Positions 32,512-43,114 of a stretch of 64,000 bases of DNA are shown here, piece after piece. Source of the DNA: Salinibacter altiplanensis (GTDB lineage Bacteria; Bacteroidota; Rhodothermia; Rhodothermales; Salinibacteraceae); the NCBI RefSeq assembly GCF_002894645.1, contig NZ_NCQY01000002.1:365871-429870 (forward strand), written 5' to 3'. Each line of letters starts with the position of its first letter. The stretch's first letter is position 1. A program made the position numbers and the translations under genes. The notes beneath the pieces were generated by a model. The model was not told the origin of the DNA and made no database searches. It saw only the letters and a program-made list of their open reading frames with translations.

Positions 32512-33354
32512 TCAGCCCTGTGCGGGACGGGGCGGAGGCGCCGGGGCGGGGGCGCCGGACTTGAGATGACGCGCGAACGCCTCCACCTCGTCGAGTCGGT
32601 CCGGTACGGACTGTTCGGGGGGCTCCCAGAGGGCCGCAACGTGGTTGATGAGGGCGGAGCCGACAATGAAACCATCGGTGTGTCGGCTGAGCTCCATCGC
32701 GTCGTCGTGGGTCTTGATGCCAAAGCCGACGAGGAGGGGATTTCGGTCCACGAGATCCTCGGCGTGCATCAGGTACTCCTCCACGCTGGGCGTCTCGGCC
32801 AGGTCACTGCCCGTGAGGCCGGTCACGCTCACCGCGTACACGAAGCCCGTCGCCCGTTGGTCGACGACACGGATCCGGTCGTCGGAGGTGTTGGGGGCAA
32901 TCAGGAAGACCAGGTCAAGGCCGTGGGCGGCGGCCGCGTCGCAGAGCGCGTCGCTTTCCTGCGGGGGGAGGTCCGGAAGGATGAGCCCATCGACCCCGGC
33001 CTTCGCCGCGTCTCGACAAAAGCCATCGACCCCATACTTGAACACCGGGTTGACGTAGCCCATGAGCAGGAGGGGCGTGTCGCTGTCCTCCCGAAATGCC
33101 TCGACGGTGTGGAGGGTGTCGCCCAGCGTAACGTCGTGGGAGAGGGCCTGGGCGCTGGCTCGTTGGATGGGACGCCCCTCGGCCAACGGATCGCTGAAGG
33201 GCATGCCCAACTCGATGAAGTCCGCTCCCCCGCGGTCGATTGCGTGGAGGAGGGGGACGGTCGCGTCGGGATTTGGAAAGCCGTCCGTCAGGAAGAGCCC
33301 CATGGCTTTGTCGTCAGGGCCAAGGGCTTCGAACGTTTCGTCGAGTCGGGACAT
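32512..33354 (-). CDS. trpA: tryptophan synthase alpha chain
   Basis: TrpA, 280 residues; it cleaves indole-3-glycerol phosphate to indole and glyceraldehyde 3-phosphate. The catalytic Glu is in [10 protein letters not shown] (residue 48). The second catalytic acid, normally Asp in PLADG, is Glu here (PLAEG, residue 59), a notable conservative change. The phosphate-binding loop region [12 protein letters not shown] is present. The C-terminus ends in a Pro/Ala-rich tail. It is the last biosynthetic gene of the trp operon, 53 bp after trpB. Confidence 0.95.
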
Positions 33355-33407: not shown

Positions 33408-34628
33408 TTACCGGTGCGCGGCGATGGTCTGCATGTCTTTGTCGCCCCGGCCGGAGCAGTTGAAGACGAGCACGGCGTCTTCCCCTCGCTCTTCGGCCAG
33501 ATTTCGTGCCAGCTCAGGCAGAAGGGCGACGGCGTGGGCCGTCTCGAGTGCCGGAATGATGCCTTCCGTGCGGGACAGCAGCTCCACTCCATCCAGGGCC
33601 TCGTCGTCGGTCACCGGGTGGTACGTGACGCGTCCCTCGTCGCGCAGATGGGCATGCTCGGGGCCCACCCCAGGGTAGTCGAGACCGGCGGAGAGCGAGT
33701 GGGCGAGGCTCACCTGGCCGGTGTCGTCCTGCAACAGGTAGCTCATCGCCCCGTGCAGCACGCCCGGCGAGCCCTCGGCGAGGGTGGCGGCGTGGTCGCC
33801 GTCGAGGCCGCCGCCTGCCGCCTCGGTCCCGTGCAGCTGCACCTCGGGGTCGTCGAGAAAGGGGTGGAAAATGCCGATGGCGTTGGAGCCACCGCCCACG
33901 CAGGCCGCGATGGCATCCGGCGTCTCCCGACCGGTCTCCTCGCGCAGCTGACGGCGCGTTTCGGTCCCGATGACCCGATGAAAGTTGCGCACCATCATGG
34001 GGTAGGGGTGGGGGCCCACGACGGAGCCGATGATGTAGAACGTGTCGTCCGGGTTGGACACCCAGTCCCGAATGGCTTCGTTGGTGGCTTCCTTCAGGGT
34101 TTGGCTCCCCGAGGTCGCGGCCCGAACCTCCGCGCCGAGCAGCTCCATGCGCTCCACGTTCAGGCGCTGGCGCTCCATGTCCTCGGCCCCCATGTAGATC
34201 ACACAGTCCACCCCAAACTTGGCGCAGACCGTGGCGGTGGCCACGCCGTGCTGCCCGGCCCCGGTTTCGGCGATGATGCGCTCCTTGCCCATGCGCGTCG
34301 CCAGCAGGATCTGGCCGAGCGTGTTGTTGATCTTGTGGGCGCCGGTGTGGCAGAGGTCCTCCCGCTTCGCGTAGATGCGGGCCCCACCGGCCTGTTCGGT
34401 CAGGCGGTCGCAGTAGGTGAGGGGCGTGGGCCGACCGGCGTAGTCCGCGAGGAGGGCGCGAAGGTCTGCCTGAAAGTCCGGGTCGTCCTTGTATGTGTCG
34501 TAGGCGGCCTTCAGCTCCTCCAGAACCGGGGTGAGGGTTTCCGGCACGTATGCGCCCCCGTACGAGCCGAAGTGGCCGTCGGTATCGGGCAGGGCATCCG
34601 GACGAGACGTCGTGGCGGGGGCAGACAT
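33408..34628 (-). CDS. trpB: tryptophan synthase beta chain
   Basis: TrpB, 406 residues, PLP enzyme that joins indole and serine to give tryptophan. The Schiff-base lysine is in [13 protein letters not shown] (residue 99). The glycine-rich phosphate loop [11 protein letters not shown] is near residue 245, and the C-terminus has [10 protein letters not shown]. The N-terminus [16 protein letters not shown] is typical of TrpB1, the partner of TrpA. Confidence 0.97.
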
Positions 34629-34708: not shown

Positions 34709-35374
34709 CTAGGCGTCATGCGTTTCGGCTTCTTCCAACTCGTCCGCCGCGGCCTGGAAGGCGTCCATGAATGCATCGATCTTCTCAAAGCTCTTCTGCC
34801 CGGGAGCGGATTCGAGACTGCTCGACAGGTCGATCGCGAACGGGCGCATCGTCTCGAGCGCCCGGGCCACGTTCTCGGCGTTGAGACCGCCGGCAAGGAA
34901 GACCGGGTAGTCCTCGGCGAAGTCGCGGACGAGACGCCAGTTGAACGATTCGCCGGTGCCGCCCCACACGCTCGAATCGTGGGTGTCCAGCAGGAAGTAT
35001 TCCGCCACGTCCTCGTAGCGCTCGAAGAGCGTCCGGAGCTGGTTTGGGGCCGCGTCGTGCCGCACGTGGATTGCCTTGATCACGGGGCAGTCGACCCGTT
35101 CGACGACGTGGGCGGGCTCTTGTCCGTGGAGCTGGGCCACCTCAAATCCGGCGGTCTCCACCGCCTCGTTGATGGTGTCGGCGCCGTCGTTTACAAACAC
35201 CCCGACGGGCGCGGGGCCGTGCACCCATTCAATGATATCGTTGGCAAGGGCGGGCGGGGCGTAGCGTGGACTCTCCTCGTGCTGAATGAAGCCGAGGTAA
35301 TCAGCCCCCGCGCCCGCCAGGTAGCGGGCATCTTCGAGTTCGGTGATGCCGCAGGCTTTGAGCTTAACTCCCAT
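34709..35374 (-). CDS. trpF: phosphoribosylanthranilate isomerase
   Basis: TrpF, 221 residues, (beta/alpha)8 barrel converting phosphoribosyl-anthranilate to CdRP. The catalytic Cys is in [11 protein letters not shown] (residue 8) and the catalytic Asp in [29 protein letters not shown] and [10 protein letters not shown] form the phosphate site. The ATG at 35374 gives the right N-terminus. The family's usual DVSSGVE is here DLSSSLE. Lies between trpC and trpB. Confidence 0.95.
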
Positions 35375-35451
35375 GGGACGTGACTGCGTGGGTGGCGAAA
35401 GCAGAAGAGAAAATAGACAAAACAAACGGTCGTCGCTTGGCCGGCACTCGG

Positions 35452-36270
35452 TTAGGCTCCGTCGGCCCGTTGGGCCGCAATCTTCTTGCCCTCGGCGCGG
35501 AGCTGGGAGAGCGCCTCGCCGGGATGCTCCGCGCGCATCAGGTGCTCGCCGATGAGGACGCCGTTGACACCGGCCTTTCGGAGGCGCACGAGCGTCTCGG
35601 GATCGCTCAGGCCACTCTCGGCCACGCGGCCTACGCCCTTCGGGGTCTGGTCGAAAATGCGGAGCGAATTTTCGATATCGACGTCGAAAGTGCGAAGGTC
35701 GCGGTTGTTCACCCCGAGGACATCCACCTGCTCCCAGCTGATCGTGTCGAGGTCCTCTTCCTCGTACACCTCCACGAGGCACGACAGCCCGAGCTCGGTG
35801 GCGGCGGCGTGCAGGTCGGCGAGCTGGCCCGGATCGAGGGCCGTCGCGATGAGCAAGACCGCGTCGGCGCCCACCGCCCGTGCCTCCACGAGCTGATACG
35901 GGTCGATAATGAAGTCCTTCCGCAGCAGCGGTGTGTCGGGCACATGGGCCCGGATCCAGGCCATGTGCTCCAGCGCCCCCGAAAAGTGAATTGGCTCGGT
36001 GAGCACACTGATCGCCGCCGCGTCGTGCTTGGCGTACTGCTGCGCAATGGCGGCGGGGTCAAACTTGTCCCGAATGACGCCCTTGGAGGGAGATGCCTTC
36101 TTGACTTCCGCGATGAACGAGAGCCCCCGCTCCTGCAGGGCCGTCGCGAGCGAGAGGGGCTCCCGCTCGTCATAGAACGGACGCTCCTTGAGTTCCGAAA
36201 CGGGCGTCTCTCGTTTCCGCCGCTCCACGAGCTCGCGGGTGTCGCTGATAATGTCGTCCAGGATGCTCAC
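35452..36270 (-). CDS. trpC: indole-3-glycerol phosphate synthase
   Basis: TrpC, 272 residues, single-function barrel enzyme. Key parts: [38 protein letters not shown], and [12 protein letters not shown]. The start is the GTG at 36270, giving [15 protein letters not shown]. Longer readings run through Pro/Arg-rich sequence over the end of trpD and are not credible. A GTG start may lower its translation relative to neighbours. Confidence 0.95.
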
Positions 36271-36325
36271 GGTGAGAATGGGTTGGTGCTGAGGACGGGG
36301 AGGGGGCGCGGGCCATCTGTTGCCC

Positions 36326-37369
36326 TTACTCGGACTTGGCCCTCTTCGACACGCTGGCAAGGGTGTTGAGGGTTTCGAGGGCGGCCCCGGAGTCGATGCT
36401 CTCCGCCGCGGCCTCCTGGCAGGCGTCGAGGTCGGCGTACTGCCCACTGACGTGGAGCGCGTAGGCGGCGTTCAGCAACGCGATGTCCCGCCGAGGGCCC
36501 TGGTCCTCGCCGGACAAAATGTTGCGGAGGATAGCGGCATTGTCCCGGGCGGTCCCGCCTTCGAGGGCGGATATGGAGGACCGGTCCAGGTTGTGACTCT
36601 CCGGGCCGACCTCGTGACTCCGTGGGACCGGGTTTTGGTCCGTGGCGTCGTACTCGAAGAGCGTCGTGGGGGCGGAGACGCTGACCTCATCCAGCCCGTC
36701 GTCCGCGTGGAGCGTGATGACGTGGTCGGCGTCGAGCTCGGCGAGGATGCGCGCCATGGTCTGCGCCGTGCTCGTGTCGAAGGCGCCCACGATCTGGCGG
36801 GTGACGCCGGCCGGGTTGCAAAGGGGGCCGAGGATGTTGAAGAAGGTGCGGACGCCGAGCGCCTTGCGCACCGGCATCACGTGCCGCATGGCGGGATGAA
36901 AAAAGGGGGCGAACAGGAAGGCAATGCCGGCCTCGTGGAGGCACTGTTCCACGCCCTCCTTCTCGAGGTCGATTTGCACGCCGAGGGCCTCCAGCACGTC
37001 GGCGGAGCCGGACTGGGACGAGACGGAGCGGTTGCCATGCTTGGCCACGGTGGCCCCGGCCCCGGCGGCGATGAGGGACGCCGTGGTGGAGATGTTGAAC
37101 GTGCTCGCCCCGTCGCCCCCAGTGCCGCAAAGGTCGATGGCACGAGGATCGTCGGTCTCTACGGAGACGGCAAACTCTCGCATGGTCTTCGTGAACCCGA
37201 CCAGTTCGTCCAGCGTCTCCCCCCGGGTGCGGAGACCCATTAGAAGGGCGGCGATGTGCTCGTCGCGGGCGGAGCCGTTCATCATGGAGGCCATGGCCTC
37301 TTCGGCCTCTGCACGCGAGAGGGGATCGCCGTCGGCGATGGTTTGGAGAAAGGTGTTCACGGGCAGCAA
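36326..37369 (-). CDS. trpD: anthranilate phosphoribosyltransferase
   Basis: TrpD, 347 residues. It transfers phosphoribosyl from PRPP to anthranilate. The PRPP loop GTGGDGASTFNISTTAS is near residue 81. KHGNRSVSSQSGSADVLEALG and FFHPAMRHVMPVRKALG are conserved. It is not fused to TrpG, which lies 26 bp upstream. Confidence 0.96.
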   Translation of the reverse strand: MLPVNTFLQTIADGDPLSRAEAEEAMASMMNGSARDEHIAALLMGLRTRGETLDELVGFTKTMREFAVSVETDDPRAIDLCGTGGDGASTFNISTTASLIAAGAGATVAKHGNRSVSSQSGSADVLEALGVQIDLEKEGVEQCLHEAGIAFLFAPFFHPAMRHVMPVRKALGVRTFFNILGPLCNPAGVTRQIVGAFDTSTAQTMARILAELDADHVITLHADDGLDEVSVSAPTTLFEYDATDQNPVPRSHEVGPESHNLDRSSISALEGGTARDNAAILRNILSGEDQGPRRDIALLNAAYALHVSGQYADLDACQEAAAESIDSGAALETLNTLASVSKRAKSE

Positions 37370-37395: not shown

Positions 37396-37998
<603 letters not shown>

Positions 37999-38125
37999 TG
38001 GTGGGGAGGAATGTGGAGGGAACGGAGGAGCGTCCGCCGGGGGGAACCGGGAAGAGTAGTCCGGCCGCATGGGAAGACGGAGCGGGACGGACGCATGGTT
38101 TGTTCAGCGTTTCCCGGCCCCAACA

Positions 38126-39160
38126 TCAGTGTGCGCGGACCAGTCCGACCCGGTCGCGCACCTTCTCCAAAAGGGGCTCTGCCCGGGCCCGGGCGTCCGT
38201 TGCGCCCTGCCGAAGCACGTCCCGCACGTAGTCGGGCCGTCGCTCGAGGTCCTTGCGCCGAGCCCGGGCCTCGGCGAAGTGGTCCTCGATCAGCGTTGTG
38301 AGTGCCTGTTTGGCGTGCCCGTAGCCGTAGCCGCCCGCCCGGTACTGGGCGGCGATTTCCTGCCGTGTCTCGTCGTCGGCAAACAGGGTAATGAGTGCGA
38401 AGACGTTGCAGGACTCGGGATCCTTCGGTTCGTCAAGGGGGGTAGAGTCGGTCACGATGTTCATCACCGTCTCCTCAAGCGCATCGCCTTCGTCGAAGAT
38501 GCCGATGGTGTTGCCGTAGCTCTTCGACATTTTGCGCCCGTCGGTGCCGGGGACGACGGCCACGTCGTCGAGAATTTTGGGCTCGGGAACCGGAAGGAGG
38601 GGCTCGTCCTCCGGGCAAAATCGGTTGTTGAAGCGACGGGCCAGATCACGGGCAATTTCCAAATTCTGTTTCTGGTCCGCCCCGACAGGCACCAGAGACC
38701 CGCCGTACGCCAGGATGTCGGCGGCCTGAAGCACCGGGTAGTTGAAAAGGCCCGCGTTGGGCGTAAGGCCGGCGTCGATCTTGTCCTTGTACGCCAGGCC
38801 CTTTTCGAGGGTGCTTGTCGGGAGAAGGTTGAGGAAGATCCACATGAGCTCGGTTACCTCCGGCACGTCGCTCTGCACGAAGAGGGCCGCCTCGTCCGGA
38901 TCGAAGCCGAGTGCGAGGTAGTCCAGGGCCACATTAAAGGTGTTTTCGCGGAGTTGCTCCGCGTCCTGCACCGTCGTCATCGCGTGGTAGTTCACGATGA
39001 AATAGTAGGCGTCGTGGGACCGGTGCAGGGCGATGTGCTGGCGGAGGGCGCCAAAGTAGTTGCCCAGGTGCAGGCGCCCGGAGGGCTGGATGCCGGAGAC
39101 CACGACCGGGTCGGCCGGCGTGTCGGTGTCTGGGGCCGAGGCAGAATCGGCGGCTTCCAT
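38126..39160 (-). CDS. trpS: tryptophanyl-tRNA synthetase
   Basis: Class-Ic aminoacyl-tRNA synthetase, 344 residues. The HIGH-type motif is PSGRLHLGNYFGA and the KMSKS motif is GRKMSKSYGN. The N-terminal 20 residues (Ala/Asp/Pro-rich) precede the Rossmann fold. It charges tRNA-Trp. Its place inside the trp operon is unusual. Through the attenuator in front of trpE it would be induced when charged tRNA-Trp is scarce. Confidence 0.96.
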   Translation of the reverse strand: MEAADSASAPDTDTPADPVVVSGIQPSGRLHLGNYFGALRQHIALHRSHDAYYFIVNYHAMTTVQDAEQLRENTFNVALDYLALGFDPDEAALFVQSDVPEVTELMWIFLNLLPTSTLEKGLAYKDKIDAGLTPNAGLFNYPVLQAADILAYGGSLVPVGADQKQNLEIARDLARRFNNRFCPEDEPLLPVPEPKILDDVAVVPGTDGRKMSKSYGNTIGIFDEGDALEETVMNIVTDSTPLDEPKDPESCNVFALITLFADDETRQEIAAQYRAGGYGYGHAKQALTTLIEDHFAEARARRKDLERRPDYVRDVLRQGATDARARAEPLLEKVRDRVGLVRAH

Positions 39161-39207: not shown

Positions 39208-39687
39208 TTACGTCAAGTCCTCAATGCGTCGCTGCAGCGCCGTGAGGGCGTCGAGGCGGTCCTGGCTGTTGCTCCGGATGGCCTGGAGCACCCCGCGGGT
39301 GCGCATCTGATGCTCAAGGTCGAGCTCGTCGGCGAGGGCGTCGTTGAACGACGTTTCGAGGTCGCGCAGCTCCCCGAATAGGGGGCTCAATGCTCCCTCG
39401 AATGCAAAGTCGTCGGGGGAAAGGTCCGTGCCGTTGTAGGGGGTGCCCCCGCAGCTCAGGACGGTCTCGGACAGCTTGCCCACGTCGGTACGGGCGGTCT
39501 TCTGCAGGCGCTCCAGCACGTCTACGACGCGCTCGTCGTCGCAGTGCCGGATGGCGGCGCCGTAGTGGTGGTTCAGTTCAATGTGCTGTCGGATGAGCGC
39601 GTCGAGGCGGTCCACCGTTTCGGACCGGCTGAGCGTCGGGCCGGCCCAGCCGCGATTCAGAAGCACCTCTTTGATTGGGTTCGGCAT
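39208..39687 (-). CDS. uncharacterised helical protein in the trp operon
   Basis: A 159-residue, highly helical acidic protein starting MPNPIKEVLLNRGWAG. Two long predicted helical hairpins hold HIELNHHYGAAIRHCDD and EDELDLEHQ-like acidic/His positions, reminiscent of ferritin-like or DUF2383-type bundles. I cannot name the family firmly. It lies between trpE (109 bp upstream) and trpS (47 bp downstream), on the same strand. No membrane segment or signal peptide. Function unknown. Confidence 0.7.
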   Translation of the reverse strand: MPNPIKEVLLNRGWAGPTLSRSETVDRLDALIRQHIELNHHYGAAIRHCDDERVVDVLERLQKTARTDVGKLSETVLSCGGTPYNGTDLSPDDFAFEGALSPLFGELRDLETSFNDALADELDLEHQMRTRGVLQAIRSNSQDRLDALTALQRRIEDLT

Positions 39688-39796
39688 AACCGGAGAGAAG
39701 TGTTGATGAGACAAGCGTGGTATGCTACCGGTGTGCGGGGGGAAGGTTTGGAGGCTGGACAGGGGACAAAGGGCACCGCCGGTCGTGTCCGACAGG

Positions 39797-41305
39797 TTAC
39801 AGGAGCCCATCGGAGGCCACGCGAAGGGCCTGACGCAGGGCTGCGGCCTTGTCCCGAGTTTCCTCGTACTCGCGGGCGGGATCGCTGTCCGCGACGATGC
39901 CCGCCCCGGCCTGCACGTACGCTGTCTCGTCGGCCACCACCATGGTACGGATGGTAATGCAGGTGTCGAGGGTTCCGGAGAAGTCGACGTAGCCGACGGC
40001 CCCGGCGTACACCCCGCGTCGAGCGGGCTCCAGTTCATCGATGAGCTCCATCGCTCGCACCTTCGGTGCCCCGCTGACGGTCCCGGCCGGGAAGCAGGCC
40101 GCCAGGGCGTCCATTGAGCTCTGGTCGGCGGCCAGCGTCCCCTTCACCGACGACACGATGTGCATGACGTGGGAGTACCGCTCGACATAGGCGTACCGAT
40201 CCACCTCCACGGTGGCGTATTGGCAGACCCGACCCAGGTCGTTGCGGCCCAGGTCGACCAGCATCAGGTGCTCGGCGCGCTCCTTGGTGTCGTTGAGCAG
40301 CTCATCGGCGAGGGCCTCGTCCTCGGACTCGTCCGTGCCTCGCGGCCGGGTGCCCGCAATGGGCAGCACCTCGGCGGTGCCGTCTTCGGCCCGCACCAGC
40401 ACCTCCGGCGAAGAGCCCACGAGTGCAAGGTCGTCAAGGTCAAGGTAGAAGAGGTAGGGCGACGGGTTGACCTGCCGCAGGGCCCGGTACAGGTTGAAAC
40501 GGTCGCCGTCGAAGGAGGTCGCAAAGCGCTGCGACAGGACGACCTGGAAGATGTCGCCCTTCTGGATGTGATCTTTGGCGGTGCGGACCGCGCTTTCGAA
40601 GGCGGGCTGCTCAGTGTTGGAGGCAAGTGTTTCCCCCGTCCACTCGACAGGGACCGGCGGGTCGGAAGGGCGCTTGAGATCGGCCTCCAGGTCGGCAAGT
40701 CGGGTGTGAGCGTGGTCGTAGGCGGCCCGCAGGTCCGTCTCCGCGTCGATGAAGACGTTCGCCATCAGCACGAGTTGGTGACGGACGTGGTCAAAGGCCG
40801 CGACGGTGTCGTAAAAGCACCACACGGCGTCGGGAAGGCCGAGGTCGTCTGGAGGGGCATCCGGAAGGTGCTCCACGAGGCGTACGGCGTCGTACCCGAG
40901 GTAGCCCACGGCCCCGCCTCGCAGGCGCGGAAGGTCCGGCAGTTCGACTTCCTCGTACCGGCCCAGGTACGCGTCCAGCACTTCGAAAATGGAGCCGGAG
41001 GGAGAAGAGAGGTCGGCTTCGGGGGCGGGGGTCCGACGCTCGTCGATCTTGACCGTGGCCCCAAACTCTCGGCCTGTCAGGACGCGGTATGGGTCGCGAC
41101 CCAGAAAGGAATAGCGGGCCAACTTCTCGCCCCCCTCCACACTCTCAAAAAGAAAGCTATACGGGGTGTCTTCGCGAAGGGCAAGGTATGCCGAGACCGG
41201 GGTGAGGAGGTCAGCACTCCGACGGGCGTGCACCGGCACCACGAGACGAGAGGGGCCGTCGGCCCGGGCAGCGTCTACACATGTGCGAAACTCGTCGTAC
41301 GTCAT
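39797..41305 (-). CDS. trpE: anthranilate synthase component I
   Basis: TrpE, 502 residues, chorismate to anthranilate. The N-terminal feedback-inhibition element appears as FLFESVEGGEKLARYSF, equivalent to the tryptophan-binding LLES motif. The catalytic part has GDIFQVVLSQRF, GSSPEVLVR, PIAGTRPRG and FPAGTVSGAPKVRAM. The ATG at 41305 gives MTYDEFRTCVDAARAD. It is the first structural gene of the operon and sits 32 nt after a terminator hairpin in an attenuator-like leader. Confidence 0.97.
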   Translation of the reverse strand: MTYDEFRTCVDAARADGPSRLVVPVHARRSADLLTPVSAYLALREDTPYSFLFESVEGGEKLARYSFLGRDPYRVLTGREFGATVKIDERRTPAPEADLSSPSGSIFEVLDAYLGRYEEVELPDLPRLRGGAVGYLGYDAVRLVEHLPDAPPDDLGLPDAVWCFYDTVAAFDHVRHQLVLMANVFIDAETDLRAAYDHAHTRLADLEADLKRPSDPPVPVEWTGETLASNTEQPAFESAVRTAKDHIQKGDIFQVVLSQRFATSFDGDRFNLYRALRQVNPSPYLFYLDLDDLALVGSSPEVLVRAEDGTAEVLPIAGTRPRGTDESEDEALADELLNDTKERAEHLMLVDLGRNDLGRVCQYATVEVDRYAYVERYSHVMHIVSSVKGTLAADQSSMDALAACFPAGTVSGAPKVRAMELIDELEPARRGVYAGAVGYVDFSGTLDTCITIRTMVVADETAYVQAGAGIVADSDPAREYEETRDKAAALRQALRVASDGLL

Positions 41306-41325: not shown

Positions 41326-41358
41326 CAAAACAAAAACCCGCCACCAGTCGGCAGCGGG
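41326..41358 (-). terminator. trp attenuator: intrinsic terminator in the trpE leader
   Basis: On the minus strand, CCCGCTGCC (41358-41350) pairs with GGTGGCGGG (41345-41337) in a nine-pair stem with two G-T pairs and a GACT loop. TTTTTGTTTT follows at once. The hairpin lies between the trp promoter and trpE with no gene to terminate, so it must act inside the leader. Its 5' arm overlaps the antiterminator segment. Confidence 0.88.
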
Positions 41359-41421
41359 TCCAGAGTCATTCGGTACGAGGGCCGTGCACAGCATCAGGCA
41401 CGTCGAGGACTCTTGACCCGC
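41354..41421 (-). promoter_or_regulatory. trp attenuator: antiterminator pairing (segments 2 and 3)
   Basis: Segment 2, GCGGGTCAAGAGTC (41421-41408), is complementary to segment 3, GACTCTGGACCCGC (41367-41354), at 13 of 14 positions. Segment 3 shares 41358-41354 with the 5' arm of the terminator, so the two structures exclude each other. Segment 2 begins 11 nt after the second Trp codon of the leader ORF. A ribosome stalled there would leave segment 2 free. Confidence 0.82.
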
Positions 41422-41477
41422 GGAGAGACAGGCCAGGGCCACCCGCTCGTGCATGTGATGCCGTGGTTGTTAATCAT
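41394..41477 (-). CDS. trpL: trp leader peptide
   Basis: A 27-codon ORF starting MINNHGITCTSG and continuing W-P-W-P, with Trp codons at 41441-41439 and 41435-41433, then VSPRVKSPRRA and a TGA at 41396-41394. Its stop lies past segment 2 and before segment 3 of the attenuator. A ribosome that finishes the peptide therefore covers segment 2 and frees segment 3 to form the terminator. This is the arrangement of the enteric trp leader. There is no Shine-Dalgarno motif, as for other genes here. The peptide itself needs no function. Confidence 0.75.
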   Translation of the reverse strand: MINNHGITCTSGWPWPVSPRVKSPRRA

Positions 41478-41485
41478 ACAGTTGT

Positions 41486-41514
41486 AGGGTAGGACCCAGA
41501 CGCATCATCCGCAA
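41486..41514 (-). promoter_or_regulatory. candidate trp operon promoter
   Basis: On the minus strand, TTGCGG (41514-41509) and TACCCT (41491-41486) are spaced 17 bp. They match the sigma-70 boxes only in part (TTG..., TA...T), but the position is right: transcription would start just before the leader ATG at 41477. Confidence 0.4.
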
Positions 41515-41869
41515 CGGGAATGGTTTGAAATTCGATTGGAGGCCCCTCCCGGGACGGCATTCCCATCCGTCCTCGGTATGGCCCTCAGAGTCTGTTTCAA
41601 TTCACCTCTTGGACCCCCCAGGGAATACTTCCTCGCCCCGCTCGGGGCGCCGGGCGCGGTCTTGACGGGCTGCAAATCGCCTCTTCACTCGGCCGACAGT
41701 CCCACTGCAGGCCTCGTTCAAGGGGGGATTTTCGCCCCGCCAATTCTCGCTCTCGCGATCTCCCCCCAAACCAAGACAGACTCTCAGTGGAGGGGGCGAG
41801 GGGAACCTGAAACCGGCTCAGGCCTTGATTTCGCCAAGTGTTCTCTCCGATCCCACTCCCGATGTGGAC
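41515..41869. other. intergenic region between trp promoter and VKOR gene
   Basis: 355 bp with no convincing gene. A perfect palindrome CGCCCCG-CT-CGGGGCG lies at 41634-41649, and the stretch around 41600-41650 is rich in C and G runs. The plus-strand frame through 41536-42087 is not protein-like. The promoter for the VKOR fusion gene should lie here but is not recognised. Confidence 0.4.
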
Positions 41870-43114
41870 ATGGTCCTGGTGCAGACTCTCCGCGAGCGGC
41901 TGAGAGGATACCGTCCACGGCTGGAGCTTCTGGTGTTCGGGCTCTCATTGCTGGGGATTCTCGACGTTGTGCACCTGCGGATTCAGCAGGGAAGGGGCTT
42001 CAAAAATGGATGTCTCGGGACGTCGTCGTTCGGGGGAAACACGTCCCTCTTCGACTGTGCGGCGGTCACGACCGGACCGGGACATGAGCTTTTGGGGGTG
42101 GACAACACAACGTGGGGACTCGGGTTTTACGGAATGGTTGGCCTACTGACCGTCATCGTGTTCTGGGTCGCGCCCGCGCTGCGAGAATGGGGCCATGGCG
42201 CCCGGTTTGGCCTGCTCACGGGGGGCGTTGCATACTCCGCATACCTTACGTACCTCCAGGTCAGTCCTCCGGAGACGGTGTGCCTTCTGTGCTTGGGGTC
42301 GGCCTTCATCACGACATTCCTGTTTGCGGGACAGGTTGCCCTGCTTGCTTCCTCACCAACATTCCCCTCTGACTCCATGTCGTCTCGACTCGTAAAACGG
42401 CAGATTGCGCTCTTTGTCTACTTCATCGCCGCCGCGGCTGTCCTTGTTGGGACGGACCTCGTCTACTTCAATGGGGAAGGTGCCCAGGACGTGCAGGCCC
42501 GCTCCCGCTCCGCGTCCGGATCGGTCGCGTCGGCCCAGTGCGAGCTCGACGACTCGAAAGCGCCGCTGCAGGACCAGGGCTCCTCGCTCGTCGGCTTTCA
42601 GGACATTGCCGAGGGCAGTAACGAGTCCGGCGTGACAGTCGTCGAGTACTTTGATCCGAATTGCCCGCACTGCAAAGACTTTCATCAGATTATGAAGCAG
42701 GTGGTGGAGGCCCACCGCGACGAGGTTCGGTTTGTGTACAAGCCGTTCCCCCTCCGCCGCTCGTCGCTTCCGGAAATTCAGGCCCTGTACGTGGCGGCCC
42801 AGTCCGACAAGTTTGATGAGATGCTGGAGGCGCAGTACGCTCGTCAGGGACCAAATGGCATCTCGACGCAGGATCTCCGTGCCATCGCGGACGACATTGA
42901 CCTGGATCCCAACGTGTTGACTGATCGGGTAGAACAGAATGAGTATCGCGATCAGATTCTCCAGCAGCGGAAGCAGGCCGTGAAGATTGGGGTCGACAGC
43001 ACGCCGACCGTCCTGATCAATGGGCACTTTGTGGAGTCCCGTACGAAGGAGTGCCTGAACACCTTCGTCGAGCAGGCGAAATCTGGGACCCTCAGTGACG
43101 CAGCGTCCGGGTGA
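41870..43114 (+). CDS. VKOR-thioredoxin (DsbA-like) fusion protein
   Basis: A 414-residue membrane protein for disulfide formation. The first 200 residues are a vitamin K epoxide reductase domain with four or more helices, a loop Cys pair (NGCLGTSS ... LFDCAAV) and the active CLLC near residue 145. After another helix comes a periplasmic thioredoxin-like domain with YFDPNCPHCKDF and the cis-Pro loop VDSTPTVLINGHF. The VKOR part passes electrons to quinone and reoxidises the fused DsbA-like part, which oxidises exported proteins. The ATG at 41870 is preferred to a TTG at 41825. It replaces a DsbA/DsbB pair. Confidence 0.9.
   Translation: MVLVQTLRERLRGYRPRLELLVFGLSLLGILDVVHLRIQQGRGFKNGCLGTSSFGGNTSLFDCAAVTTGPGHELLGVDNTTWGLGFYGMVGLLTVIVFWVAPALREWGHGARFGLLTGGVAYSAYLTYLQVSPPETVCLLCLGSAFITTFLFAGQVALLASSPTFPSDSMSSRLVKRQIALFVYFIAAAAVLVGTDLVYFNGEGAQDVQARSRSASGSVASAQCELDDSKAPLQDQGSSLVGFQDIAEGSNESGVTVVEYFDPNCPHCKDFHQIMKQVVEAHRDEVRFVYKPFPLRRSSLPEIQALYVAAQSDKFDEMLEAQYARQGPNGISTQDLRAIADDIDLDPNVLTDRVEQNEYRDQILQQRKQAVKIGVDSTPTVLINGHFVESRTKECLNTFVEQAKSGTLSDAASG

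Follow-up and report, generated by a model that had tools for sequence, protein, structure and literature searches.

The trp leader of E. coli (trpL; Rfam Trp_leader, RF00513) carries its Trp codons in a short ORF and sets a 2:3 pairing against a 3:4 pairing upstream of trpE. In the Alphaproteobacterium S. meliloti, the trpL mRNA of trpLE(G) begins at its ATG, trpE(G) alone is under this control, transcription repression is absent, and trans-acting roles have been described for the trpL sRNA and peptide (PMC7298713). The attenuators of Streptomyces and Corynebacterium combine a terminator and an antiterminator, with conserved complementary triples in GC-rich RNA (PMC1262725), and S. lividans has a leaderless, Trp-rich trpL1 (MFAHSTRNWWWTAHPAAH) as well as a separate attenuator for trpS (PMC8079986). 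Leader-peptide systems were known just in Proteobacteria and Actinobacteria before Firmicutes were added (Naville and Gautheret 2010, PMC2965389). In 2021 leader-peptide attenuation was suspected at amino-acid operons of Flavobacterium, with transcriptome-supported 5' regions in Flavobacterium psychrophilum; the main text of that paper names no trp leader (PMC9723704).

Here we analyse a trp leader in a 64,000-nucleotide stretch of the Salinibacter altiplanensis genome (hereafter the window), which we read, with a probability of about 0.93, as a predicted classical ribosome-mediated transcription attenuator controlling the operon trpE-(DUF2383)-trpS-trpG-D-C-F-B-A. In mechanism the leader is a trp attenuator, but its sequence falls outside the enteric Rfam family, the RF00513 covariance model giving no match at gathering score. 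The locus resembles E. coli trpL in its short ORF with two Trp codons, its choice between 2:3 and 3:4 and the position of trpE, and differs in having no Shine-Dalgarno sequence, a near-leaderless predicted start, a weak 1:2 hairpin, no TrpR and trpS within the operon. The predicted start recalls S. meliloti, as does the lack of TrpR in the genus, but nearly the whole pathway plus trpS would be controlled here. Complementary triples in GC-rich RNA are shared with Streptomyces and Corynebacterium, and the leaderless (here predicted), Trp-rich design with S. lividans, which belongs to another phylum and does not regulate trpS from within the trp operon as here. NCBI places Salinibacter ruber in Rhodothermota, class Rhodothermia; GTDB files Rhodothermia under Bacteroidota. 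The remark in an earlier note on this DNA that no case was described in the phylum depends on which taxonomy is used: we found no report on trp attenuation in Salinibacter or Rhodothermota in the open-licence PMC literature, but Flavobacterium, where attenuation is suspected (PMC9723704), is in Bacteroidota according to GTDB. The predicted near-leaderless start and a possible class-level switch of antiterminator partner are the parts that a specialist may not expect.

Leader, terminator and operon in the window

The leader measures 172 nt from its own ATG to that of trpE (41477-41306, minus strand; Table 1). Direct reading and a script run on the minus strand both returned the coordinates that the earlier note had given for the leader ORF, the Trp codons and segments 2 and 3, including a 27-codon ORF with Trp-Pro-Trp at 41441-41433 and the pairing of 13 of the 14 bases of segments 2 and 3. 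The ORF, whose translation is predicted, is rich in codons for the amino acid made by the operon. Between it and the first biosynthetic gene lies a conserved intrinsic terminator, the end of which falls some 20 nt short of the trpE ATG. The nine-pair hairpin described previously is real, although the terminator scan gives a 12-pair stem of which those nine pairs form the G-C-rich core.

Table 1. Features of the trp leader and operon; positions refer to the window and all features lie on the minus strand.
Feature	Position	Description
Upstream block	41522..41533	GAATTTCAAACC, adjoining the -35 box on its 5' side; TTTCAA shared by all 12 congeners and several other members
-35/-33 box	41509..41514	TTGCGG, followed by a 17-nt spacer
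-10/-7 box	41486..41491	TACCCT; ends 8 nt before the leader ATG; predicted 5' UTR about 2 nt
Leader peptide ORF	41394..41477	ATG 41477 to TGA 41396-41394; 27 codons + TGA, MINNHGITCTSGWPWPVSPRVKSPRRA; position and Trp run conserved
Trp-Pro-Trp regulatory codons	41433..41441	Trp codons 41441-41439 and 41435-41433
Segment 1	41428..41435	TGGCCTGT; contains the second Trp codon; pairs with segment 2 in the free leader fold; weakly supported in relatives
Segment 2	41408..41421	GCGGGTCAAGAGTC; pairs with segment 3
Segment 3	41354..41367	GACTCTGGACCCGC; overlaps the terminator 5' arm
Intrinsic terminator hairpin and U-tract	41326..41361	12-pair stem 41361-41334 with 7 G-C pairs; tail TTGTTTTG
trpE, anthranilate synthase component I	39797..41305	ATG 41305; TIGR00564, 574 bits (cut-off 517.7)
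DUF2383-like protein, second operon gene	39208..39696	PF09537, E 1.2e-5, below cut-off
trpS, tryptophanyl-tRNA synthetase	38126..39160	TIGR00233, 260 bits, above cut-off
trpG	37396..38070	TIGR00566, above cut-off
trpD	36326..37369	TIGR01245, above cut-off
trpC	35452..36273	NF001377, above cut-off
trpF	34709..35383	Top hits to phosphoribosylanthranilate isomerase models, each below cut-off
trpB	33408..34628	TIGR00263, above cut-off
trpA	32512..33354	Inspection of the translation

The 2:3 duplex of the window has an energy of -25.1 kcal/mol versus -13.4 in shuffles (z -4.5) and is not a product of chance. Folding of the whole leader gave the terminator together with, further upstream, a long hairpin in which segment 2 is sequestered (-65.4 kcal/mol, z -3.5), and when the 3' arm of the terminator was left out segment 2 paired with segment 3 (-35.2). 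Keeping the 3' arm but trimming off everything 5' of 41430 gave, as the fold of lowest energy, the terminator and six remaining pairs of 2:3. Since the terminator is still the lowest structure without the upstream leader, antitermination must win by timing, and the earlier claim that segments 2 and 3 exclude the terminator holds kinetically but not thermodynamically. The 1:2 hairpin, a candidate pause or anti-antiterminator structure, forms in the free fold of the window; it beats shuffles (z < -1.64) in four of the 12 genus members and is not above shuffles in most relatives, making it weak as a conserved element. Calling the attenuator complete, as had been done, is for this reason generous.

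According to the model we favour, RNA synthesis would start within a few nucleotides of the leader ATG and the nascent RNA would take up a ribosome at its 5' end. Under a shortage of charged tRNA-Trp, this ribosome would stall at W-P-W and cover segment 1, leaving segment 2 free to pair with segment 3 once that is made; the 5' arm of the terminator would then be trapped and RNA polymerase would enter trpE. With charged tRNA-Trp in good supply, the ribosome would reach the stop codon and mask part of segment 2 (1:2 may re-form upon its release), segment 3 would pair with segment 4, and transcription would end at the U-tract, some 20 nt short of trpE. Segment 2 would just be left free by a ribosome that has stalled on the last Trp codon. 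Consistent with this footprint, segment 2 in relatives begins about 10-20 nt past the first base of the last Trp codon, just 3' of where the stalled ribosome would sit. Counting against the model, no more than the 3' half of segment 2 would be masked by a ribosome that has reached the stop codon.

The trpS gene and the DUF2383-like gene adjoin trpE across the order, the DUF2383-like gene standing between the other two. In the remaining orders sampled from the class trpS is again a neighbour of trpE, and throughout this sample it belongs to the trp operon. As trpS lies inside the controlled operon, the output of a predicted sensor of tRNA-Trp charging includes the enzyme that charges tRNA-Trp. 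The divergent neighbour (41825-43114, plus strand) encodes a VKOR-DsbA-like fusion protein. Elsewhere in this genome (G000; 3.59 Mb, 30 contigs), prephenate dehydratase (PF00800) matches two adjacent frames at G000:C4:34670-35204 (L261 and L262), split after profile position 87; the gene is one frame in congeners, and the split is a frameshift or an assembly error. Neither leuA (TIGR00973) nor ilvB (TIGR00118), which cluster in nearly all congeners, had a match in the genome, and branched-chain amino-acid auxotrophy or an assembly gap are both possible. No leader of this style was found for hisG, ilvB or pheA in up to 15 genomes, where these genes need not be promoter-proximal.

Conservation and covariation among relatives

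We gathered 122 regions upstream of trpE, working from the genus towards more distant groups, and scored each for a terminator and a leader with at least two Trp codons within six codons. Both were present in 87 of the 122 regions, and in 70 when at least three Trp codons were demanded, compared to 4 and 0 on the reverse strands and 2.2 and 0.0 in shuffles. By taxonomic rank, the combination was found in 12/12 regions of the genus, 7/7 of the family, 29/45 of the order (27/45 after two dubious calls were dropped), 17/17 of the rest of the class and 21/40 of the rest of the phylum; leaders such as MKAATLNTSQNWWLWWPSSRVWSPCCV (G009), MRHVAYHSAHYFGWWWFSPAAVGRARA (G042) and MKNENAHKNSWWWPFAIYSSGHRM (G068) serve as examples. 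All 12 congeners retain the TGG at 41435-41433, and across the same 12 genomes the terminator stem is paired in 132 of 132 cells. A convincing Trp leader before trpE was absent in the order families f4, most of f15 and part of f5, in which the attenuator may have been lost or moved or trpE may not be first in its operon. The order regions where no convincing leader was seen include L108, L110, L111, L113, L114, L116, L118, L119 and L124-L126.

The 2:3 duplex beats shuffles (p<=0.05) in 49 of the 62 class-level leaders (genus 12/12, family 2/7, order 19/25, class 15/17, plus L005), support being poor in the family members outside Salinibacter (2/7). To follow compensatory changes, we aligned the class leaders on the CCC core of segment 3. 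With the tested column masked while the register was chosen, we counted at column 4 25 T-A and 22 C-G pairs versus one C-A and five T-G (Fisher p 4e-9), and column 0 also covaries (p 1.5e-4), these p-values overstating independence because the sequences are related. The two columns flanking the core switch as triples across segments 2, 3 and 4, with C-G-C in 22 and T-A-T in 21 leaders at one; at the other, 19 leaders have T-A-T and 15 have C-G-C. A leader's own segment 3 also fits its segment 2 better than the segment 3 of other families does (p 8e-9); in the class family f18 the own arms do not beat foreign ones. The window itself has a C-G to U-A double change relative to 11 congeners (columns 69:116 of alignment A1), which sits outside the terminator stem and is therefore explained by the 2:3 pairing alone. 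Covariation controls restricted to the genus were not significant among its 12 members, where the pairs hardly vary. At the level of the class, the data identify an antiterminator that shares the 5' arm of the terminator, is mutually exclusive with it and covaries. The comparison with relatives that the earlier note had proposed, looking for a conserved ORF, Trp codons and pairing together with compensatory changes, thus came out in favour of the attenuator.

Promoter position and alternative explanations

The promoter reported upstream of the leader ORF was found as TTGCGG-N17-TACCCT, in an arrangement that relatives conserve: TTG-N17/18-TAnnnT precedes 72 of 81 leaders versus 3.2 expected from shuffles, and in 57/57 class-level leaders with a promoter match 6-10 nt separate the end of the -10 hexamer from the leader ATG. 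The TAnnTTTG box of Flavobacterium spans -12 to -5 (PMC9723704), from which the hexamer would end at -7 and the predicted 5' UTR of the leaders would be 0-4 nt. The leader mRNA is probably leaderless or nearly so and translated from its 5' end, as is known for trpL of S. meliloti (PMC7298713) and S. lividans (PMC8079986). That the attenuator works in genes lacking Shine-Dalgarno sequences, which the earlier note singled out, is no puzzle if this start holds, because translation is predicted to begin at the RNA 5' end or no more than about 4 nt from it. Such a promoter arrangement was found at just one of 47 long ORFs in the window, and we rejected the idea that this organism generally starts its mRNAs in a near-leaderless way. 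Within the phylum, leaderless mRNAs make up a minority, at 5.5% in F. psychrophilum (PMC9723704), and 5' UTRs under 10 nt make up 3.7% in B. thetaiotaomicron (PMC7366714). The block 5' of the -35 box may act as an UP element or operator; among leaders with a promoter match, TTCAA occupies its position in 12/12 from the genus, 4/5 from the family and 4/23 from the order. We rejected a shared upstream operator (TTTCAAACC), conserved within the genus and patchy beyond it.

Could the architecture have arisen by chance, as a short ORF with two Trp codons beside the ordinary terminator of an upstream unit? Taken by itself the window copy is just modestly improbable, since 11 of 400 shuffles of its upstream region show a two-Trp leader with a terminator. 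The comparison across relatives refutes this reading, to which we assign a negligible probability: the leader is conserved throughout the class, with covariation, and the terminator lies between leader and trpE in all, so we regard the attenuator as real. Terminator and antiterminator alone would suit any device that switches between them, and they might be operated by TRAP or another RNA-binding protein, by a T-box that senses tRNA directly, or by a riboswitch, with the ORF incidental. We consider this very unlikely. Dozens of genomes, but no controls, have in-frame Trp runs at a constant position, the Rfam scan found no T-box, riboswitch or other match at the leader, and the leader has just two (G/U)AG triplets in place of the multiple repeats that accompany mtrB in TRAP-type control. 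No TRAP-family protein was detected in the 14 genomes searched, with B. subtilis as positive control, and neither TRAP nor TrpR in the nine genus genomes searched. A more distant member of the order has one TrpR-family protein.

Decay of an ancestral attenuator, with tryptophan-specific control largely lost now that just W-P-W is left and the terminator acting as a constitutive brake, is somewhat less remote but still improbable. Trp codons number two to five per leader in relatives, placing the window copy at the low end; its nearest relatives have three or four, with three in the closest and four or five in others, and W to G takes one base change. Against decay, the invariant TGG has been kept, the terminator is intact, segments 2 and 3 have changed together in the window's species, and E. 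coli trpL likewise has two Trp codons. We therefore retain a working ribosome-mediated attenuator as the preferred reading of this leader.

Other Bacteroidota and the range of attenuation

Bacteroidota (GTDB) outside Rhodothermia retain a Trp leader and a terminator, with a different antiterminator partner. Of 56 leaders from outside the class with at least three Trp codons, 28 have near the leader stop a stretch that matches the loop and 3' arm of the terminator above shuffles, and five have one that so matches the 5' arm, whereas in Rhodothermia the 5' arm is matched above shuffles in 49/62 and the 3' arm in 2/62. Clear cases of the former kind are L173 (TTCCCGGTGAAT with ATTCACCGGGAA) and L312 (TCTCAGTGACT with AGTCACTGAGA). 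The trpE leaders of this type include L173, L176, L178, L200, L202, L284, L287, L305, L306, L312 and L313. They possibly represent a different antiterminator topology, a lead and no proof, that can follow the same logic, with the stretch free when the ribosome stalls and covered when it reaches the stop codon, and with the loop as a toehold. On balance we lean slightly towards a wider reading, in which trp attenuation would be ancestral and phylum-wide in Bacteroidota (GTDB), near-leaderless because the ribosomes do not use Shine-Dalgarno sequences, with an antiterminator partner that has switched between the 5' arm, used by Rhodothermia and E. coli alike, and the 3' arm and loop in many other families, the loop maybe serving as toehold.

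Attenuation throughout Rhodothermia and in many other Bacteroidota would make the range of the mechanism much wider, provide a natural system in which it operates with ribosomes that do not use Shine-Dalgarno sequences, and allow trp regulation to be annotated in many genomes. The near-leaderless start, 6-10 nt from the -10 box across the class, suggests that coupling of the first ribosome to RNA polymerase without a 5' UTR is part of the design.
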